DNA of 28,356 bases from a virus, in the IMG/VR virus record IMGVR_UViG_3300043427_003205, positions 1-28,356 of that record. One strand, given 5' to 3'. Below are positions 3 to 12,108 of the stretch, in pieces. The notes beneath the pieces are model-generated. The model did no database searches. It saw only the letters and a program-made list of their open reading frames with translations, and was not told the DNA's origin. Numbering within the stretch: the stretch's first letter is position 1; each line of letters starts with the position of its first letter. Both the position numbers and the translations under genes were made by a program.

Positions 3-1574
3 AAGATCGAGGACTCGTTCGAGAACGCCGAGCTCGGGGACTACCACCTGATGGAGCTGGTGCGGGACGCCGGCCTGATGAACGTGTTCCGGTCGGGGCC
101 GCAGGTGCGGGCGGCGCTGGAGCGGTTCATGCTGCACGAACAGCAGGAGCTGGACGAGGCGGACTGGCAGGAGAAGTGTCGGGGCCAGCGGGACTATTTG
201 ATCCCGGACTTCGTGTCGAGGCCCAGCTCGATCATGCTGCACGCCCGGGGCGGCCTCGGGAAGACGCGGCTGGCGGTGCTGATCTCGAAGATCGTGGGCC
301 AGCAGCAGACCATGAGGGTGCGGGGGCTGGAGGTGCAGCCGACGCTCTCGGGAAATGTGCTGTTCATCGGCAACGACATGTCGATGACGGACTACGCCGA
401 GTATTTCGATCAGCAGGGGATCGATACGTCTGGGCCGGATCGGTGGATGAAGTTCAAGCCGCAGTGGCAGCAGTCGCAGTACAAGGTGCTGCTGCGGTGG
501 CTGACCGAGTACAAGCCGGTGCTTGTGGTGATCGACTCGCTGACGTCAGTCAGCACGATGATCGCCGCCAAGGAGTACGAGAAGGAGTACGCGACGACGC
601 TGTATCGGCTGGCGCGGGAAAACGGGACGGCGTTCCCGGCGACGACGTTCCTGTGGATCCACCACGACAAGAAGGACGGGACGGGGTTCCGGGGCACGGA
701 CACGCTGCGGAATGCGGTGCATGAAACCTGGCATCTGAAGGAGCTCTCGGATGAGGAGCGGGCGAAGTTCGGGGACCACGCGCTGATCCTCGAGATCGAC
801 AAGAGCCGGGGCATGCGGGGCGGGGACCGGTTCCTGGTGCGGGAGGACATCGAGGAGGCCCTGAGCCTGGAAGACCTCACGCCGACCGTGAAGCGGGACA
901 ACCGGGGCCAGGGCGACGAGACGCCGCGGACCCTCGTCCTCGGGATCCTCAAGGAGGCGGCGGGGCCGCTGACGGTGAAGGAGCTGCGGTACGAGCTCAA
1001 CAGCCGGCTGTCGGGGCGCCGAGGCCAGGGGACGCACGTCTCGAGGAGGACGGCGGAGCGGTGGCTCAAGCAGTGGGTGTCAGCCGGCCTCGTGGAGGCG
1101 ATCCAGGTGAGACCGTCTGGACAGAAGGGAGGGAGGCCTTCGACGGTGTTCCAGGTCGTTTCCCCTATATACGAGGCAAAAAATGACCAAAACCCCCCTG
1201 GATTCCCCGAGAACGACTGCGCTGCAGTGGAAGAGGTTTTGGTCACGGGTTTTGACCAAAACCCCTCTGGAGGGGAAATGACCAAAACCCCCGAGGGTGT
1301 CCCGCCTGAGACCGCTGCGACGGGGGATCTCCCCAAGGACGAGGCAAAAGAGGTGACTGAAGTGCCACCGGATGAGGTCGGCGCCGCCGGGCAACCGGTT
1401 TTGGTCACCGAGGTCGAAAAAACGACCGTGACCAAAACCCCCTCCCCCGAAACCGGCTCCACCACAGGGATTTCGGATGACGAGGCCGAGGTTTTGGTCA
1501 TTCCGGCACAGGTAAAGGAGAAGCCCGTCCTCCGCTACGAGCTCGACGACTGGGGCTCGGTTGACTGGGGGTGA
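3..1574 (+). CDS. RecA-fold ATPase / replicative helicase (RepA/AAA_25-like), 5' end outside window
   Basis: Likely the phage replicative helicase or helicase loader, an NTPase acting at the fork. The frame is open to the left edge and residues before the first ATG (51) look coding, so the true start is probably outside the window; residue numbers here count from that ATG. Walker A is GGLGKT (K71). Walker B is VLVVIDSL (D162), followed by an IHHDKK motif, as in RepA/DnaB-type RecA cores. Residues about 295-365 look like a winged helix (TVKELRYEL ... SRRTAERWLKQWVSAGLVEA). The last 130 residues are low-complexity and acidic/proline-rich, and their DNA carries a repeat array described separately. 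It is followed after 75 bases by a second helicase and then a DNA polymerase, which supports a replication role. A primase or prim-pol domain could lie in the missing N-terminus. Helicase class is inferred from motifs only. Confidence 0.85.
   Translation, partial: KIEDSFENAELGDYHLMELVRDAGLMNVFRSGPQVRAALERFMLHEQQELDEADWQEKCRGQRDYLIPDFVSRPSSIMLHARGGLGKTRLAVLISKIVGQQQTMRVRGLEVQPTLSGNVLFIGNDMSMTDYAEYFDQQGIDTSGPDRWMKFKPQWQQSQYKVLLRWLTEYKPVLVVIDSLTSVSTMIAAKEYEKEYATTLYRLARENGTAFPATTFLWIHHDKKDGTGFRGTDTLRNAVHETWHLKELSDEERAKFGDHALILEIDKSRGMRGGDRFLVREDIEEALSLEDLTPTVKRDNRGQGDETPRTLVLGILKEAAGPLTVKELRYELNSRLSGRRGQGTHVSRRTAERWLKQWVSAGLVEAIQVRPSGQKGGRPSTVFQVVSPIYEAKNDQNPPGFPENDCAAVEEVLVTGFDQNPSGGEMTKTPEGVPPETAATGDLPKDEAKEVTEVPPDEVGAAGQPVLVTEVEKTTVTKTPSPETGSTTGISDDEAEVLVIPAQVKEKPVLRYELDDWGSVDWG
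1184..1500. repeat. Iteron-like array, seven copies of TGACCAAAACC in both orientations; candidate origin or operator
   Basis: Copies reading TGACCAAAACC on the plus strand start at 1184, 1253, 1279 and 1429. Copies reading GGTTTTGGTCA occupy 1235-1245, 1397-1407 and 1490-1500. The pair at 1235-1263 forms an inverted repeat with a 7-base spacer. The array lies inside the 3' coding part of the ATPase gene. The same DNA word is read in different codon phases (DQNP, TKTP and VLVT/VLVI), so conservation is at the DNA level rather than the protein level. A short A/T-rich stretch lies just upstream, around 1165-1186. Lambda ori inside gene O is the known precedent for iterons within a replication gene. 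Origin function is inference; a repressor or regulator operator is the alternative. I saw the intact word nowhere else in the window. Confidence 0.7.
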
Positions 1575-1649: not shown

Positions 1650-3134
1650 ATGTCTCTTGCTGTATTGCCTCGCTTGTCCACCGTGGACGCATTGCGAGAC
1701 GTTTTTGGTCTGGCTTTGACAGAGCAGCAGCAGGAGGTCATCGCCACGCTCAAGGAGTGGTGCCTGGGGCCTGGAGACGGGTCTCAGGCCGTGCTCTCGG
1801 GGTACGCCGGCACTGGGAAGACCACGATCCTCCAGGTGCTGGTCCTGGAGTTGCTGAACGAGGATCCCGAGCGCGTGGACTGGATCTGGGTGACAACCCC
1901 GACGCACAAGGCCACCAAGGTGCTGGCAGGCAAACTGAGGGAGTGGGAGGAGCTGGCGCAGACCTCGGTTCCGGATCCCTGCACGATCCACAGTGCGCTG
2001 AGCCTCAAGCCGAAGCGGACGAAGCCCTACGAACCGGAAGGCTTCGTGACGTCAGGTCAGGTCCGGGTGCCACCGGGGTCGCTGATCATCGTTGATGAGT
2101 GCTCGATGGTCGGAGCGGAGCTGTACCGGATCATCACCGAGGTCGGCAAGAACTACGGGTGCCGGGTGCTGTTCACAGGGGATCCGAAGCAGCTGCAGCC
2201 GGTGAACGAGCGCAGGAAGAGCCTGAGCTTCGACGCGTCGACGAAGGTGGAACTGACCAAGGTCTTGCGCCATGACGGGGCGATTCTGGATCTGGCCACG
2301 CTGGTGCGCAGCACGCCGCGGGGGGCTGTGCCGAAGATTCGTGCTCGGGGGAGTGCCGAATCCGCGGTCGAGACTCATGGGACTCTGGATGAGCTTGTCT
2401 GTCGCTGGGTCGAGGCGCTGGTGGATGACCCCGAGAACGTCTTCTTCCTTTGTTGGACTAATAAGATCAGGCGTTTGTATAACAAGCGCGCACGGCAGTT
2501 ACTTTATGGAGAAAATGTGCCTGATTTTATGGCGGGCGATAAGTTGGTTACGCTGGCAGCTTTCGAGCGCAATGGGCAGGTACTGCTAAGCAACAACGCG
2601 GATGTGGAGGTTGAATCAGCTACGCAGACGCATCATAAACCTCTCGATGATCTGCCTTACAGCTATGACTGCTGGGAGTTAAGGCTTAAAAACTTTGGTA
2701 CGGTGTATGTGCTAGCTGATCATGCTCATACACAGTTCAAAGCTGATGTGAAGAAGCTGGGTGAAGAGATTAAAGGAGTCAACGATAAAGTCAAAGCTGA
2801 ATATGAAGTCGTGACGCAAAGACTTAAGAAAGAGCTTAAGCTATCAGATAGAGAACTGCAAGGTCATTCTGCTTTGCGTGAAGCGCGTGAAAGAGTCGCT
2901 GTAGCTAAGCGACGCTGGTCAGAAGAGTTTTTTGCTTTGAAGCATTACTTCGCGGAAGTGGACTTCGGGTATGCAGTAACAATTCACAAGTCGCAGGGCA
3001 GCACTTATCAGAAAGTTTTTATTCACCATGACTATTTCAATAATAAAGCAGAGCGTTTGCAGCTGCTGTATGTGGCAGTGACTCGTGCAACAAAAGAGGT
3101 CCATCACCTCTTGGTTGATAGTGGTTCAAGGTAA
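1650..3134 (+). CDS. SF1 DNA helicase (Dda/RecD2-like)
   Basis: ATP-dependent DNA helicase of superfamily 1B, expected to help fork progression or recombination-dependent replication. Motif I is GYAGTGKTT (K57), motif II is DECSM (D149/E150), motif III is GDPKQLQPV, and the C-terminal UvrD_C_2-type motifs are TIHKSQGSTYQ and LLYVAVTRA. All core motifs are intact and the 494-residue length suits Dda-like enzymes. A charged, probably coiled insert lies at about residues 365-430. The gene starts with ATG at 1650, 75 bases after the upstream ATPase gene, and no strong Shine-Dalgarno is visible. Composition changes inside the gene: a sampled line near 1800 is about 63% GC, lines near 2460 and 2820 are about 42-43% GC, with the switch at about 2440. 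This suggests recombinational mosaicism. Confidence 0.93.
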   Translation: MSLAVLPRLSTVDALRDVFGLALTEQQQEVIATLKEWCLGPGDGSQAVLSGYAGTGKTTILQVLVLELLNEDPERVDWIWVTTPTHKATKVLAGKLREWEELAQTSVPDPCTIHSALSLKPKRTKPYEPEGFVTSGQVRVPPGSLIIVDECSMVGAELYRIITEVGKNYGCRVLFTGDPKQLQPVNERRKSLSFDASTKVELTKVLRHDGAILDLATLVRSTPRGAVPKIRARGSAESAVETHGTLDELVCRWVEALVDDPENVFFLCWTNKIRRLYNKRARQLLYGENVPDFMAGDKLVTLAAFERNGQVLLSNNADVEVESATQTHHKPLDDLPYSYDCWELRLKNFGTVYVLADHAHTQFKADVKKLGEEIKGVNDKVKAEYEVVTQRLKKELKLSDRELQGHSALREARERVAVAKRRWSEEFFALKHYFAEVDFGYAVTIHKSQGSTYQKVFIHHDYFNNKAERLQLLYVAVTRATKEVHHLLVDSGSR

Positions 3135-3368
3135 TGGGCAATCATTGCAGCGGCGAGGCTTCAGCAGTTCTGCTGCGATCATGTCTTTTGCTGTGAAGTG
3201 GTAGTCCACGAGTTTGTGGGCTAAGCCTTTCAGTTGTTCCAGGTCTTGGCATGCTGTGATCATGCGGTGCGCTGATTCGATAGCGAAGGCCCTGGAAGTC
3301 GCATCCATGTCCAAACTGCCGTTGATCAACAATGCCATCTGCGCAAGCAACTCGTAACGCTGAAGCAT
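3126..3368 (-). CDS. Small hypothetical protein, antisense between helicase and polymerase genes
   Basis: Eighty residues beginning MLQRYELLAQMALLING. The sequence is protein-like: balanced amphipathic helices, no runs, and a cysteine pair near the C-terminus (RRCNDC). I do not recognise a family. It fills the whole interval between the helicase stop (3134) and the polymerase start. Its 3' end overlaps the helicase by 9 bases and its ATG (3366-3368) overlaps the 5' end of the polymerase reading frame. If real, its promoter must lie within the polymerase gene. The absence of any plus-strand gene in this otherwise compact interval favours a real minus-strand gene. No clear ribosome binding site is visible. 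Function unknown. Confidence 0.6.
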   Translation of the reverse strand: MLQRYELLAQMALLINGSLDMDATSRAFAIESAHRMITACQDLEQLKGLAHKLVDYHFTAKDMIAAELLKPRRCNDCPLP

Positions 3369-5281
3369 TGCAGCGTCTTGACTACGAGATAATTCGTGGT
3401 CCTAAGGATGCTTCTACATTGAAGACGATGTTGAAGCGGATGGTATCGACGAATAAGTGCTTAGGCGTGGATACGGAAACAACAGGACTTGATCCGCTTG
3501 TGAATCAAGTACGTTTAATTCAGATCGGGTCTGCTGACTTCGCACTGATCGTCGATCTCGATGGGTGGCGACGGCCAGGCGAACGTGCGGTGCCGTGGAA
3601 ATCACCAGGATTGCGGGAGTTGAAGAGCTACCTCGAGAGCGGAGCCCCGAAGGTGCTGCAGAATGCTGCGTTTGACCTGAACTTCCTGGGAGGTGAGGGA
3701 GTCGTCCTCGGGGGTGCGCTGTTCGACACGATGGTAGCCGCGAAGCTTGTGAACAATGGCTGTGGTGTGCGCAACGACTTGGGATCGATTACTGATCGTG
3801 TGCTTAAAGTCAAGCTTCCTAAGGAGCTGCAAAAGGCTGATTGGTCTGGCGAGATAACCGATGAGATGTTTCATTACGCAGCGCGAGATGTGATATGTCT
3901 GCCGATGCTTGTGAAGCCTTTGTCTGAAGCGCTGGTTGGATCGAAGATTAAGCCAGGCTTTACGTTGTGGGATTTGTTTCAGATTGAGATGGAAGTATTG
4001 AAGCCGATTGCGTTGATGCAAGGGCATGGTTTTGCTTTTGATCGAAAGAATGCGATTGAGTTACGCGCTCAGCTAGAGGAAGAAGCTGAGGCGTTGAAAC
4101 TGTCGTTCCTTCAGCTTTTAGAGGTGGAAATCAAGAAGCGACACTCAGAGGAGTCAGGTTTCTGGTTACCTCGTGAGGCAGATGGGAGCTTCAACACCAG
4201 GGAAAAGGAGTCGGGCTCGGTGCGGAAGGGCACGAAGCTTTACGCCGGGTTCAACCCGAGGTCGACCAAACAAATGGCCCAGCGGTTTGAGCAGGCCGGG
4301 ATTCTGCTGCCGCCAGATGAGAAGGGTGTCACGAGCCTGGATCAAAACCTGCTTGCGTTCTTACGAAAAGACTACGAGTTGATCGACAAGTATTTGACGT
4401 GGAAGACAGCTGTTACGCGCGTCTCCAGTATGGATACGTTGCTAGAAGCGATCGGCCCTGATGGTCGCATTCACTGCAATTACAAGCAGATGGGGACGGA
4501 GACGGGGCGTCTGTCGGCAGCGTCGCCGAATTTGCAGCAGGTGAATCGGAGCCCTGAGTTTCGGAGCAAGTTCATTGCGGAACCCGGGCACGTCCTCGTG
4601 GTGGCCGACTTCAGTCAGATCGAGCTGCGGGTGGCGGCGGAGCTCTCGGGGGAGGAGCGGATGCTCGAGGCATACCGGGCCGGGAGGGATCTGCACACCG
4701 AGACCGCAGCACTGATGACGGGTGTCGCCCTCGGGGAAGTCACCAAGAAGCAGCGCACTTCGGCCAAGGTGGCCAACTTCGGACTGCTCTACGGAGCTGG
4801 GGCGGCGACTCTGCGCAAGCAAGCTGTCGCTCAGTACGGCATTGATATAGAGCTCGAAGAAGCTCGTGAGATCGTCAACGGCTTTCGTAGTGCTTATCCT
4901 CGCCTTTATCAGTGGCAAGTGCAAGAGGGCAACAAGACGACGAAGGCGGTGACGACCGCTCTCGGGAGGAGGCGGATGCTCGTGGGGTTCAACGACAAAT
5001 ACACGACGCGGATCAACACCCAGGTGCAAGGGACCGCCGGGGACATTGCCAAGCTGGCGATTCGACGCTTGTGGCGCGAGATTTGTCAAGCGCCTGGGGG
5101 AGAAGCGAAGCTCATCGCCATGGTGCACGACGAGATCGTGCTCGAGGTGAGGGCTGAAGCCGCGGAGCATTGGTCTCAGGTGCTCAAGCGCTGCATGGAG
5201 GAAGCGGGCGCGGAGATCTGTAAGGAAGTGCCCATCGTTGCTGAGGTGTCGACAGGAGCGACGTGGGCAGACGCGAAGTGA
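3332..5281 (+). CDS. Family A DNA polymerase with 3'-5' exonuclease (DNA polymerase I-like)
   Basis: Phage replicative polymerase that copies DNA and proofreads. Exonuclease motifs: Exo I DTETTG (D47), Exo II NAAFD (N111-D115), Exo III YAARD (Y182-D186). Polymerase motifs: A DFSQIELR (about 426), B QRTSAKVANFGLLYG (about 474-488), C VHDE (598-601). There is no 5'-3' exonuclease domain, as in T7-like and many phage Pol I relatives. The position equivalent to E. coli Pol I 762 is Phe (F483). Start choice is uncertain: ATG at 3332 is given, but the TTG at 3368 or the ATG at 3416 are possible because the first 12 codons lie antisense to the small minus-strand gene. Composition alternates along the gene (A/T-rich at about 3780-4180, GC-rich after 4180). 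It follows the two helicase genes and precedes a regulator gene. Confidence 0.96.
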   Translation: MPSAQATRNAEALQRLDYEIIRGPKDASTLKTMLKRMVSTNKCLGVDTETTGLDPLVNQVRLIQIGSADFALIVDLDGWRRPGERAVPWKSPGLRELKSYLESGAPKVLQNAAFDLNFLGGEGVVLGGALFDTMVAAKLVNNGCGVRNDLGSITDRVLKVKLPKELQKADWSGEITDEMFHYAARDVICLPMLVKPLSEALVGSKIKPGFTLWDLFQIEMEVLKPIALMQGHGFAFDRKNAIELRAQLEEEAEALKLSFLQLLEVEIKKRHSEESGFWLPREADGSFNTREKESGSVRKGTKLYAGFNPRSTKQMAQRFEQAGILLPPDEKGVTSLDQNLLAFLRKDYELIDKYLTWKTAVTRVSSMDTLLEAIGPDGRIHCNYKQMGTETGRLSAASPNLQQVNRSPEFRSKFIAEPGHVLVVADFSQIELRVAAELSGEERMLEAYRAGRDLHTETAALMTGVALGEVTKKQRTSAKVANFGLLYGAGAATLRKQAVAQYGIDIELEEAREIVNGFRSAYPRLYQWQVQEGNKTTKAVTTALGRRRMLVGFNDKYTTRINTQVQGTAGDIAKLAIRRLWREICQAPGGEAKLIAMVHDEIVLEVRAEAAEHWSQVLKRCMEEAGAEICKEVPIVAEVSTGATWADAK

Positions 5282-7625: not shown

Positions 7626-8794
7626 ACCTAGGCTTTGAAAAGTGGTCAGGTAAGCCCGTGGTTCAGGCTCGTAACAAAACGTTTTCGAACACCTGGGATG
7701 GGGTCGTTGCCGCCGCGCAGGCGACCGGCGCTCGCTTCCCCGAGCTCGTGGCGGCGCAATGGGCCCTGGAGAGTGGGTGGGGCAAGCACACGAGTGGCAA
7801 GAATAACTTCTTCGGTCTGAAGGGAGGTGGAACAGCAAAGCAAACACAAGAGGTAATCAATGGTAGAACTGTGACTATCACAGCGAGCTTTATTGATTTC
7901 CCTGATCTTGTGACTTGTGTAAGTTATTTGGTATCGCGTTGGTACAAGGATTGGAAAGACTATAAAGGTGTCAATAATGCAGTTAATCGTGAAGTTGCTG
8001 CGCGTTCGTTGGTTGAGCAAGGCTATGCAACTGATTCGGACTATGCCGAAAAGCTCATTGCACTGATGAATGAGAAAGCTCCGGTCTCGGGGGAGAAGCC
8101 GGGCGTTTCAACGAAAAACACGCCTCTATTTCAAATCACTGCGCTACAAGACACCTGGCTAAAGAAGGAGCCGGTACAGGCCACCGAGCTCGGGGGAAAG
8201 GAAAGGGTGCGCGTGGTGAAGGGGCGAGGCTATGCAGTTCTTGCATATTCCGAGGTCGCGGCGGATGCGCATGCGCGGGTGGAGCTAGCCGCGGGATCAG
8301 GGACGTGGTTTGTGTTCGAGCCTCATTGGAAGCGGGATCAGCCGATCGGTGAGGCGCTATCGGTTTCGGTGGATTGGCACGATTTCGACTGTCTTGTCAC
8401 CCCGAACCTGACTGTCGGTGAAGTTCTGCAGTGGGACCGGCGGAGGATTCCGGGGCCGAGTGCGGCAGTTCGGGCTCGGTTGCTCAAGACCGCACAGGAG
8501 TTTCAGGCAATTCGGGAGGCGTGGGGACAGCCGCTTGGGGTGACGAGCTTCTACAGGCCGGAGCCCATCAACAGGCAGGTGGGCGGCGTGCCCAACTCGA
8601 GGCATGTCACGGGGCAGGCCATGGACATCTACCCGGTGAACCGCGGTCTCGAGGAGTTCTATCAGTGGATTCGCCTCCGGTGGCGTGGCGGCCTCGGGGA
8701 TGGCCGACGCAAGGGCTTCATTCACCTCGACACTGATGGTGGTGGCTTTGTGCCAGGGGGCGGAGCTACACCATCAGCGATGTGGGACTACTGA
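7607..8794 (+). CDS. Two-domain endolysin: glucosaminidase plus M15-type peptidase
   Basis: Peptidoglycan hydrolase for host lysis. Residues about 28-160 form an N-acetylglucosaminidase (FlgJ/LYZ2-like) domain with WALESGWGKH (probable catalytic E55) and NNFFGLKG. Residues about 170-250 resemble an SH3-like linker domain. Residues about 255-395 form a peptidase M15A-like domain with SFYRPEPINRQVGG, SRHVTGQAMD (H333, D340) and FIHLD (H373), the expected zinc ligands and partner motif. There is no signal peptide, so export would need a holin-type partner. The start is uncertain: GTG 7607 is the first possible start after an in-frame stop at 7598, and GTG 7658 is an alternative that would clear the arm-site repeats. 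The gene is alone on the plus strand, flanked by attP and by convergent minus-strand lysis genes. Confidence 0.9.
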   Translation: MDRKWTDLGFEKWSGKPVVQARNKTFSNTWDGVVAAAQATGARFPELVAAQWALESGWGKHTSGKNNFFGLKGGGTAKQTQEVINGRTVTITASFIDFPDLVTCVSYLVSRWYKDWKDYKGVNNAVNREVAARSLVEQGYATDSDYAEKLIALMNEKAPVSGEKPGVSTKNTPLFQITALQDTWLKKEPVQATELGGKERVRVVKGRGYAVLAYSEVAADAHARVELAAGSGTWFVFEPHWKRDQPIGEALSVSVDWHDFDCLVTPNLTVGEVLQWDRRRIPGPSAAVRARLLKTAQEFQAIREAWGQPLGVTSFYRPEPINRQVGGVPNSRHVTGQAMDIYPVNRGLEEFYQWIRLRWRGGLGDGRRKGFIHLDTDGGGFVPGGGATPSAMWDY

Positions 8795-9859: not shown

Positions 9860-10357
9860 CTAGGGCGCAGGCACCCAGGCTTCATTGATCTCGGGTGTGC
9901 TGGGGTCGTCGGCGCGATAGGTGCCGTCTGGATTGCGGGCGCGAACTCTGGAGTTGAACACCTCCATCACATCTGACGGCAGATGACAGGCTGAGGCGAC
10001 GGCAGACACCTGATCACGCAGCGCATCGGAGATACAGCCGGCTTCACGCAACGCAACCCAGCAGGCACCGAAATCAGCAGGGCCAACGGATGCCATGGCA
10101 ATGGTTGCCGCTGGCAGGGCTAAGGCCGCAGCAGGTGCAATGCCAACGGCAGAAACCAGCGCTTCGTTCACATCGGGGCTGGAAAGGAGTGCTGCCTTAA
10201 AGGTACCCCAGTCGGGGGCGGGTGGTATCGCCAGGTATGCGGCGATAGCAGCCTCCTGTTCTTCGCGATTCATGGACAGCGGCAACACCAGCGGCTCGCG
10301 ATCAGGCGCAGTGTCGTCGGTGACGATCAAAGTGCTTGCGGTGTAGGAAAGTGCCAT
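9860..10357 (-). CDS. Hypothetical protein following the collagen-like fibre gene
   Basis: 165 residues: a beta-rich start ([20 protein letters not shown]), an alanine-rich helical middle (AAALALPAATIAMASVG, FGACWVALREAGC), and a hydrophilic C-terminus (VRARNPDGTYRADDPSTPEINEAWVPAP). The hydrophilic tail might be exposed. Its ATG overlaps the fibre stop by one base (TGATG), so it is coupled to the fibre gene and may be a fibre accessory or assembly protein. I do not recognise a family. Confidence 0.75.
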   Translation of the reverse strand: MALSYTASTLIVTDDTAPDREPLVLPLSMNREEQEAAIAAYLAIPPAPDWGTFKAALLSSPDVNEALVSAVGIAPAAALALPAATIAMASVGPADFGACWVALREAGCISDALRDQVSAVASACHLPSDVMEVFNSRVRARNPDGTYRADDPSTPEINEAWVPAP

Positions 10358-12108
10358 CAGAGTACGGAGTTGATTCTCAGAAACACAGCAGCCGCTCTAA
10401 AAGCGGAACCAAGGGAGTCAAAGGTGCTTGATGTTACGTCTGGCCAAGTGCCATACGTCTGGCCAAGCGCGATTGCTTTAGGATCTATGTTTGCAGCGGC
10501 ATTTGAAACACCTGCAAGCGTTGACGCACCAACAAGGGTTGCAATGCTTGAGTTTGCGCCTGAAAGGGTTGAAAAGGCTAAAGCAGTATTATTTCTATTT
10601 ATTGCTGCGTAGTATAGCTTTCCTGCTTCTAGTGTAAAGGGTGTTAAATCCGCAGACTCTACTGTCGTTGCCGTTGCTCCACTTAGATCTCCGGTTGCGC
10701 CAAGTGGCGTGCCAGTGGGATCGTTTGTTGCATTGGCGGCATAGATAGCAAGTTGAAAATTACTTGACGCAGCTAATGTCGTGACGCGAGCACCGAGCCT
10801 GTTCACCGTAACACTGCGCCAAACAAAAAATGGAAGGAAGAAAATGGTATTTGCGTTAGTTGCACCGCCAGCGACCACCGAAGATGTGTAAGGCCAAATC
10901 CAATTTGAGGCTTTATAGGCTGGCACCACAAGGGCAGACACCGTATTCCAGGTGCCGTCGTCCTTCAGGTACTTGCCGCTGGGCGTGCCGGTCGCCGGCG
11001 CCAGCCCCGCTGTAGACGTGGAGACTAGGGGCAACGTCGCGTCAGTCCCGGTCGAGCTGCGCACCTCTCGGGTGGCGGCGTCGTAAGTGATGTCGGTGGC
11101 GACGTTGACCTGGGCACCACTGGCGATCCCATCCAACTTCGCCTTATCCGCCGCGCTCATCGAGCCCGCAGCGCTGGTCGTGGCCGCTGTGATCGCCACC
11201 GTCTGCGTCGGGGCGTCGTAGGTGAGTGGTGCCGTGGCGGCGACCACGCCGGCGGGGCCCTGGGCGCCGGCTGCACCTGCAGGGCCGGTGGGGCCGGTTG
11301 CGCCAGTTGGTCCCTGAGGTCCGGTATCTCCCGTGTCGCCCTTTGGTCCTGCTGGGCCCGTCGCGCCAGTTGGCCCTTGCGGACCCGTAGCGCCTGCAGG
11401 GCCTTGGGCACCCACCAGCGACGCCAACCACTGCGCTTCGGTGCCGACGAATCCGCCAGCCACCGCCACCTGATAGGCGCTGCTGCCTGCGGCTCCAGTG
11501 GGTCCAACAGCTCCTGCAGGGCCTTGGGCGCCCGTGGCTCCAGCGGGGCCGGTGCCACCGGCTGGCCCCTGAGCACCAGCAGCGCCTGCAGGGCCCACCA
11601 GGCTGACGCCAGCAGGCCACACCCCGCCAGCCTTCGGTCCGTAGATGACCGACGCAGCGGTGTCGATGAAGAAATCGCCGTTGGCGCCTGTGCCGCTGCT
11701 TGGCGCACTGGTGCCGCTCAGTAGCGTCCGCCCGTCAGTCCCGGCTGGGCCTTGCGCACCCGATGTGCCCTGTGGACCCTGCGGTCCAGTTGCCCCTGCT
11801 GGGCCCTGCTGCCCTTGAGCAATGCTGTAGATGGGCGATCCCCAGGCGCCGGCAGCCTTTGGACCGTAGATGTCGCCGTTGGTGGTGTTCAGGTAGAAGT
11901 CGCCGTTGGCACCGAGGCCGTTGGCCGGAACGCCAGCACCCTGCAGCCAAGCGGAGCCGAGTCCGGCGGGGCCTGTCGCCCCTGTCGCGCCGGCTGGTCC
12001 CTGCGGGCCTGGTGCGGTCGCCTCGACCACCCTCGGAACGCTGGCGCCTGTCAGTTCGACGGTCGCCTGCGACGCAGGAACAATCTGGACTTCAACCTGA
12101 TTGCTCAT
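10357..12108 (-). CDS. Collagen-like tail fibre protein
   Basis: 583 residues. Long Gly-X-Y stretches ([27 protein letters not shown] and others) occupy much of residues 30-290 and would form a trimeric collagen-like shaft. Two copies of a globular motif interrupt the shaft: [20 protein letters not shown] and [20 protein letters not shown]. After a short link ([18 protein letters not shown]), a non-repetitive C-terminal domain (about 390-583) probably binds the cell surface. Phage-borne collagen repeats are well known in tail fibres. The start overlaps the upstream gene's stop by 4 bases. The 5' shaft is GC-rich while the C-terminal domain DNA (10360-10920) is more A/T-rich, consistent with exchange of the binding tip. 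Confidence 0.92.

Follow-up and report, generated by a model that had tools for sequence, protein, structure and literature searches.

The window, that is, the whole stretch of 28,356 nucleotides of viral DNA analysed here (IMG/VR record IMGVR_UViG_3300043427_003205), opens within a replication initiator gene, which is truncated by the left edge. An identical and intact copy of this gene, at locus L008, codes for a protein of about 921 aa which unites primase, zinc, helicase and winged helix-turn-helix (wHTH) parts: a Prim-Pol domain (PF09250) and a CHC2 zinc ribbon (PF01807), both of which lie to the left of the window, then an AAA_25 RecA-like ATPase (PF13481), the winged helix and, last, a tail of low complexity. 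The Pfam scan of the initiator yields the Prim-Pol, zinc and AAA_25 domains only, with no RepA_N domain; the domain scan contains neither a Toprim-type primase nor an SF3 helicase, and the PF09250 Prim-Pol and PF13481 RecA-like domains are found instead. The winged helix is assigned to no specific family by Pfam or NCBIfam. A search with its fold retrieves generic winged helices only (best Foldseek E about 1e-3), and a second structure search gives Z values of about 10, with Fur, PadR proteins and an Orc1/Cdc6 heterodimer on origin DNA among the matches.

The C-terminus of the initiator is acidic and aromatic (DDWGSVDWG in the window, at 1536-1574; EEDW, DWG and DDLDAGF in the relatives L008-L181), and this tip may bind a replication partner. 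The proteins of two relatives end in DDDIPEECR (L099) and DEDIPEECR (L152), both of which resemble the tip of E. coli SSB, DDDIPF. The initiator gene is followed by further genes of a replication module (Table 1). At about 2000-4000 the G+C content drops from ~0.63-0.65 to 0.50-0.54 inside the Dda-like helicase gene, which suggests that this gene is mosaic. Farther along, the minus strand encodes at 10357-12108 a protein of tail type in which long stretches of Gly-X-Y resemble collagen.

Table 1. Positions of the features discussed, in the window unless another record is named
Feature	Positions	Strand	Basis or remark
Initiator gene, 3' part: RecA-like ATPase, winged helix, low-complexity tail	3..1574	+	frame open from base 3
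AAA_25 RecA-like ATPase domain	156..680	+	Pfam PF13481, E 7.7e-10
Winged helix-turn-helix domain	906..1169	+	AlphaFold2 model, pLDDT 82.6; wHTH folds in PDB
Recognition helix RRTAERWLKQWVSA	1044..1085	+	model helix 47-60; covaries with the word's left half, partial Mantel r=0.54
Wing: strands 63-68 and 79-84, loop RPSGQKGGRP at 1110-1139	1092..1157	+	model; covaries with the word's right half, partial Mantel r=0.62
Site 1, TGACCAAAACC	1184..1194	+	
Site 2, TGACCAAAACC	1235..1245	-	
Site 3, TGACCAAAACC	1253..1263	+	additional site particular to the window's subgroup
Site 4, TGACCAAAACC	1279..1289	+	
Site 5, TGACCAAAACC	1397..1407	-	
Site 6, TGACCAAAACC	1429..1439	+	
Site 7, TGACCAAAACC	1490..1500	-	
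Complete array, nested dyad + - (+) + / - + -	1184..1500	none	proposed replication origin
Dda-like helicase gene	1650..3134	+	neighbour, replication module context; PHROG 325
Family A DNA polymerase gene	3332..5281	+	neighbour, replication module context; PF00476
Array of GCCTAACCTC in phage S-LBS1	L227 about 8131-8506 = S-LBS1 record about 34243-34618		

The repeated word and its arrangement

The low-complexity tail of the initiator gene carries seven exact copies of the 11-base word TGACCAAAACC, four in forward and three in reverse orientation within 317 bases, and an exact-match scan finds zero further copies in the rest of the 28.4 kb record. The seven-copy array in the replication ATPase gene, as given in the preliminary description, is thus real, and the word is not common outside its region. 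When up to 2 mismatches are allowed, 20 matches are found against 6.7 expected (100 shuffles, maximum 16), and the repeat score of the tail, determined in L008, is 7.0, whereas none of 30 dinucleotide shuffles, of 30 codon-order shuffles or of the other windows of the locus exceeds 2.5, so that a chance origin of the repeats is ruled out. The copies are read in two forward phases and one reverse phase, being translated as DQNP, DQNP, TKTP and TKTP or as VLVT, VLVT and VLVI.

A similar confinement is observed in the relatives. Whole records of 39-66 kb each contain 6-7 copies of the word TGTCCAAAAC, all within about 310 bp. In none of the eight records examined over their full length is any repeat region stronger than the array, and shorter, 9-base words give at most 3 stray copies per record. 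The repressor sites known as stoperators are scattered over the genomes of mycobacteriophages; such a scatter is absent here, as the words are confined to ~310 bp apart from these few strays. In the 3.5 Mb genome of Vulcanococcus limneticus LL, TGTCSCTCGTT appears eight times, four copies with TGTCG in one array, four with TGTCC in another and zero elsewhere, and these two arrays, one base apart in their words, are never mixed. A separate dense repeat region, unrelated to the initiator word, lies at about 15076-15750 of L202 (record G002) and comprises 3 exact and 8 near copies of GAAGTTAGTA.

Two deeper relatives, L099 (a 52 kb viral contig) and L152 (a cyanobacterial MAG), have a short tail devoid of the array, which is located in the gap after the initiator gene: six copies of the window's exact word in L099, where the Dda-like helicase gene follows, and six copies of TGTCAAAAACC in L152. 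In L150 a stop codon precedes the last sites, and the array extends past the stop. Third codon positions are also more conserved inside the sites (0.96) than outside them (0.79). Since the arrays of L099 and L152 lie between genes, the array acts as DNA and not via the peptide.

The order + - + - + - and the spacing are kept while the word changes, whether the array is coding or not. Start-to-start spacings lie near 42, 31, a centre of variable length, 30 and 43 in coding examples (L079, L091, L132 and L135); they amount to 43, 30, 38, 30 and 43 in the intergenic array of L152, to 43, 29, 29, 29 and 44 in that of L099, and to 53, 42, 120, 30 and 63, plus one additional + site, in the window's subgroup. 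By our reading of these numbers, made without statistics, many arm spacings are close to whole-number multiples of the 10.5 bp helical turn. In the six-site order, sites 1 and 6, 2 and 5, and 3 and 4 pair as a nested dyad (+-+ / -+-), and the flanks of paired sites are more similar to each other (0.37-0.40) than those of unpaired ones (0.27-0.29). The array had been described as iteron-type, with irregular spacing and mixed orientation. The spacing proves to be conserved, within a nested dyad, so that irregularity does not hold; the array is iteron-like, yet unlike classical iterons, as direct repeats of ~17-22 bases in register are absent and the 11-base words alternate in orientation.

Turnover of the word among relatives

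Relatives of the initiator are present in viral contigs, in genomes of Synechococcus, Vulcanococcus and Cyanobium and in cyanobacterial MAGs, so that the hosts are picocyanobacteria; the product of the gene family is a replication protein that their phages and prophages carry. A profile search of genome contigs with the ATPase alignment gave no matches, and the prophages were found with the N-terminal alignment. Records of isolated phages contain no close homologue, the full-length search revealing a Prim-Pol similarity of 33% to phage S-LBS1, and the plasmid collection yields only distant ATPases, in cyanobacterial plasmids. S-LBS1, an isolated freshwater phage, carries an iteron-like array of GCCTAACCTC directly after its replication gene, a different gene of Prim-Pol type.

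The window's word is missing from its closest 34 relatives, with the exception of its own copy, L008. Nearly all homologues carry a repeated word of their own at the matching places, altered in every copy at once. The word of L009, which shows 97% identity in the part that comprises ATPase and winged helix, is TGAGCAAAACC, and TGTCCAAAACC is the word of 13 representative genes; further lineage-specific words include TGTCCGTAAATGC, TGTCGTTAA, TGTCCATCGTT, TGTCCATTGCT, TGTCAATCGTT, TGTCCGTTCAT, TGTCCTTTGC, TGTCCGAACC, TGTCCGCACTG, TGTCCCTCGTT, TGTCGCTCGTT, TGTCCCTATAT, TTTCCGAAAAT and TGATTCGATCA, among others. The word of each tail is a consensus call made in this analysis, and by these calls there are about 23 distinct words, namely 21 in the coding arrays tested, that of L152 and TGACACACCT in L197. 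The repeat score exceeds all of the tail's own shuffles in most of the 53 representative tails, with a narrow margin in a few, and five of the 53 (L077, L137, L138, L139 and L179) have degenerate copies only. Homologues lacking the word had been named as a refutation of the array. Literally they do lack it, but the result points the opposite way, as each has substituted its own word in all copies; this replacement, together with the intergenic arrays of L099 and L152, bears out the earlier proposal that the DNA word is under selection and not the amino acids.

Two differing initiator versions are found within one MAG (L155 and L156, the latter truncated after the wing) and within one genome (L150 and L153). 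Upstream of the initiator gene, several loci (L092 1-450, L094 451-900 and L021 451-900) contain a near-palindrome, CTGAGTCTCA, in 3 exact copies and one near copy.

The word and the winged helix of the initiator

The change of the word is accompanied by changes in the winged helix of the protein encoded by the same gene. Among 48 tails, the distance between left halves of the word (TGACC in the window, TGTCC in most relatives) correlates with that between recognition helices (partial Mantel r 0.54, p 0.001) and not with that between wings (-0.06), whereas the distance between right halves correlates with the wing (0.62, p 0.001) and not with the helix (-0.20); the ATPase distance explains neither, and these tests are made on non-independent homologues, for whose ancestry they control in part. 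Corrected for the divergence of the tail between the sites (46 tails), the values are 0.45 for the right half with the wing and 0.43 for the left half with the helix, and the cross terms are negative. The covarying residues map to helix 3 and to the wing loop of the AlphaFold2 model.

Five close pairs behave as natural exchanges. Identity in L018/L025 is mostly 94-99% up to the helix, about 60% over wing and array and 97% thereafter, and in L133/L134 it is about 99%, then 68-85% over wing and array, then 99-100%; in both pairs only the wing and the right half have changed, and wing and array were exchanged together. In L008/L009, L150/L153 and L099/L152, the helix and the left half differ, while the right half is kept and the wing tip is similar. 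The helix motif RTVRRW accompanies TGTCA in the differing backgrounds of L091 and L152, and TVRRW is also found with TGTCC (L181); no single helix residue predicts the word without exceptions. The DNA-binding part and its sites thus covary and are exchanged as one module.

The array as a candidate origin, and known systems

The array very probably consists of sites to which the winged helix of its own initiator binds, most likely as the replication origin of the phage. We infer from the covariation that in each 11-base word the recognition helix would read the left half and the wing loop the right half, AAAACC being read by a GGRP wing. With three sites on each arm of the nested dyad, the helicase-primase may be loaded on both arms, head to head. 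Because the array lies inside the low-complexity tail of the gene, the presumed reader and its sites are passed on and swapped as one cassette. The family has probably diversified into many specificities, the presumed cause being the avoidance of cross-talk or titration between co-resident elements; the presence of two orthogonal elements in one cell fits such avoidance, and the decoy origins that block lambda (PMC4488673) and the nuclease directed against PLE iterons (PMC8263062) are precedents for such a cause. A protein with Prim-Pol, helicase and winged helix, and with a private dyad array in or directly after its gene, fits a replication origin.

The same protein could also bind the same sites for another end, the array being an operator for autoregulation, a site akin to those used in partition or a roadblock to transcription, which we regard as unlikely. 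Binding by the initiator's own wHTH backs this role as strongly as it backs an origin, and it would be in line with the lack of a GC skew switch at the array, in the window and in the longer records examined, and of an AT-rich unwinding element, as 50-base AT fractions are about 0.3-0.5 around most arrays; both results speak against an origin. However, the protein is a primase-helicase and no repressor, its sites are situated at the 3' end of the gene or after it and not at a promoter, and a nested dyad would be an unusual form of operator. A structural element, with nested hairpins of RNA or single-stranded DNA in which the sequence matters via pairing only, would account for the strong nested foldback of the strand relative to shuffles (z -11.6 in L152, -3.8 in the window and -5 to -13 in others) and recalls the pRN1 origin, proposed as a stem-loop after the Prim-Pol gene (PMC4234260). 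It is nevertheless very improbable, since pairing requires neither one shared word in all 6-7 copies nor a link to helix and wing residues, and the additional, unpaired sites carry the word too.

The preliminary description had considered the AbrB-like regulator encoded downstream as a reader of the word. Its gene (PF14250; 5238-5726 in the window) is present at 38 of the 53 loci and typically lies 2-4 kb downstream of the initiator, yet its DNA is 100% identical in L132/L134 and 99.2% identical in L018/L025, pairs in which the words differ. The AbrB-like protein is therefore rejected as the reader, the winged helix of the ATPase protein being the part that covaries, and an AbrB operator is exceedingly improbable. 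Next to no credence can be given to protein-level repeats or chance duplications, to which a low-complexity and weakly constrained tail might be prone, as the array uses both strands and several frames, is placed between genes in L099 and L152 and past the stop in L150, and fails to be reproduced by codon-order shuffles; protein selection for the repeats is thus rejected.

For an array that serves as an origin read by its own initiator, the wider reading towards which we lean is that of an initiator family with reader and target in one gene, a two-part specificity (helix for the left half, wing for the right) and replication identities that exclude one another and are open-ended in number, two of which can be orthogonal in one cell. 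If this is true, the family would amount to a catalogue made by nature, from which the recognition code of winged helices may be read: as each gene carries the list of its own target sites, every sequenced relative would count as a finished protein-DNA specificity experiment. The joint change of reader and word in the relatives would record how a DNA-binding protein shifts its target, and provide a test bed for how such a protein and its six or seven sites co-change without loss of function, how a winged helix splits recognition between helix and wing, and what drives replicons to vary the signals at which they initiate. Replication modules that are predictable and orthogonal to each other may also be of use in cyanobacteria, where replicon tools are few.

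Origins inside initiator genes are already known (lambda, PMC7466680; RA3, PMC9455977), as are exchanged initiator/origin modules (PLE, PMC8263062). As far as the openly licensed literature was searched, the Prim-Pol/RecA family, the in-gene array with its alternating nested dyad, the number of words and the separate tracking of helix and wing are new. The lambda origin inside gene O, which had been suggested as the nearest precedent, is an apt one. The seven sites, like those of most homologues, occupy the 3' part of their own initiator's gene. The lambdoid origin lies in the middle of gene O and is bound by the O protein at 4 or 6 iterons, whose destruction by synonymous changes abolished transformation with origin plasmids (PMC7466680), and ectopic copies of the lambda origin arrest the phage as decoys (PMC4488673). 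In contrast to lambda, the window has sites that are asymmetric, 11 bases long and alternating in orientation as a nested dyad; a neighbouring AT-rich stretch was not found, and the initiator has a primase and a helicase of its own. In the IncU plasmid RA3, the minimal oriV extends into the 3' end of its own initiator gene, repB, a position shared with the window's family; the available part of that account describes long direct repeats and an AT-rich region, and no turnover of the word, unlike the window's family (PMC9455977). The iterons of begomoviruses are upstream of the gene of a rolling-circle Rep of plant viruses, and the proteins are unrelated to the window's initiator.

In P4, short repeats in both orientations are found at ori and crr. 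The alpha protein of P4 is similar to the window's initiator in that primase, helicase and a C-terminal winged helix, which binds the origin repeats, are contained in one protein (PMC4234260); it differs in its Toprim-type primase and SF3 helicase, where the window's family has Prim-Pol and RecA-like domains, sites in the initiator gene and many specificities. ORF904 of pRN1 also combines Prim-Pol, helicase and winged helix, and its gene is immediately followed by a large dyad (PMC4234260), an arrangement that L099 and L152 share, yet it has no iterons and an SF3 helicase, whereas the window's family has AAA_25 and repeated identical sites covarying with their reader. In the RepA of PLEs, satellites in Vibrio cholerae, the DNA-binding domain varies together with the origin and the two are swapped as a module, experiments demonstrated cognate pairing, and a phage nuclease aimed at the PLE iterons/origin selects for change (PMC8263062). 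This joint swapping is the feature shared with the window's family; the PLEs examined have two module types, a separate noncoding origin and RepA_N, compared to about 23 words and the separate tracking of helix and wing in the family described here.
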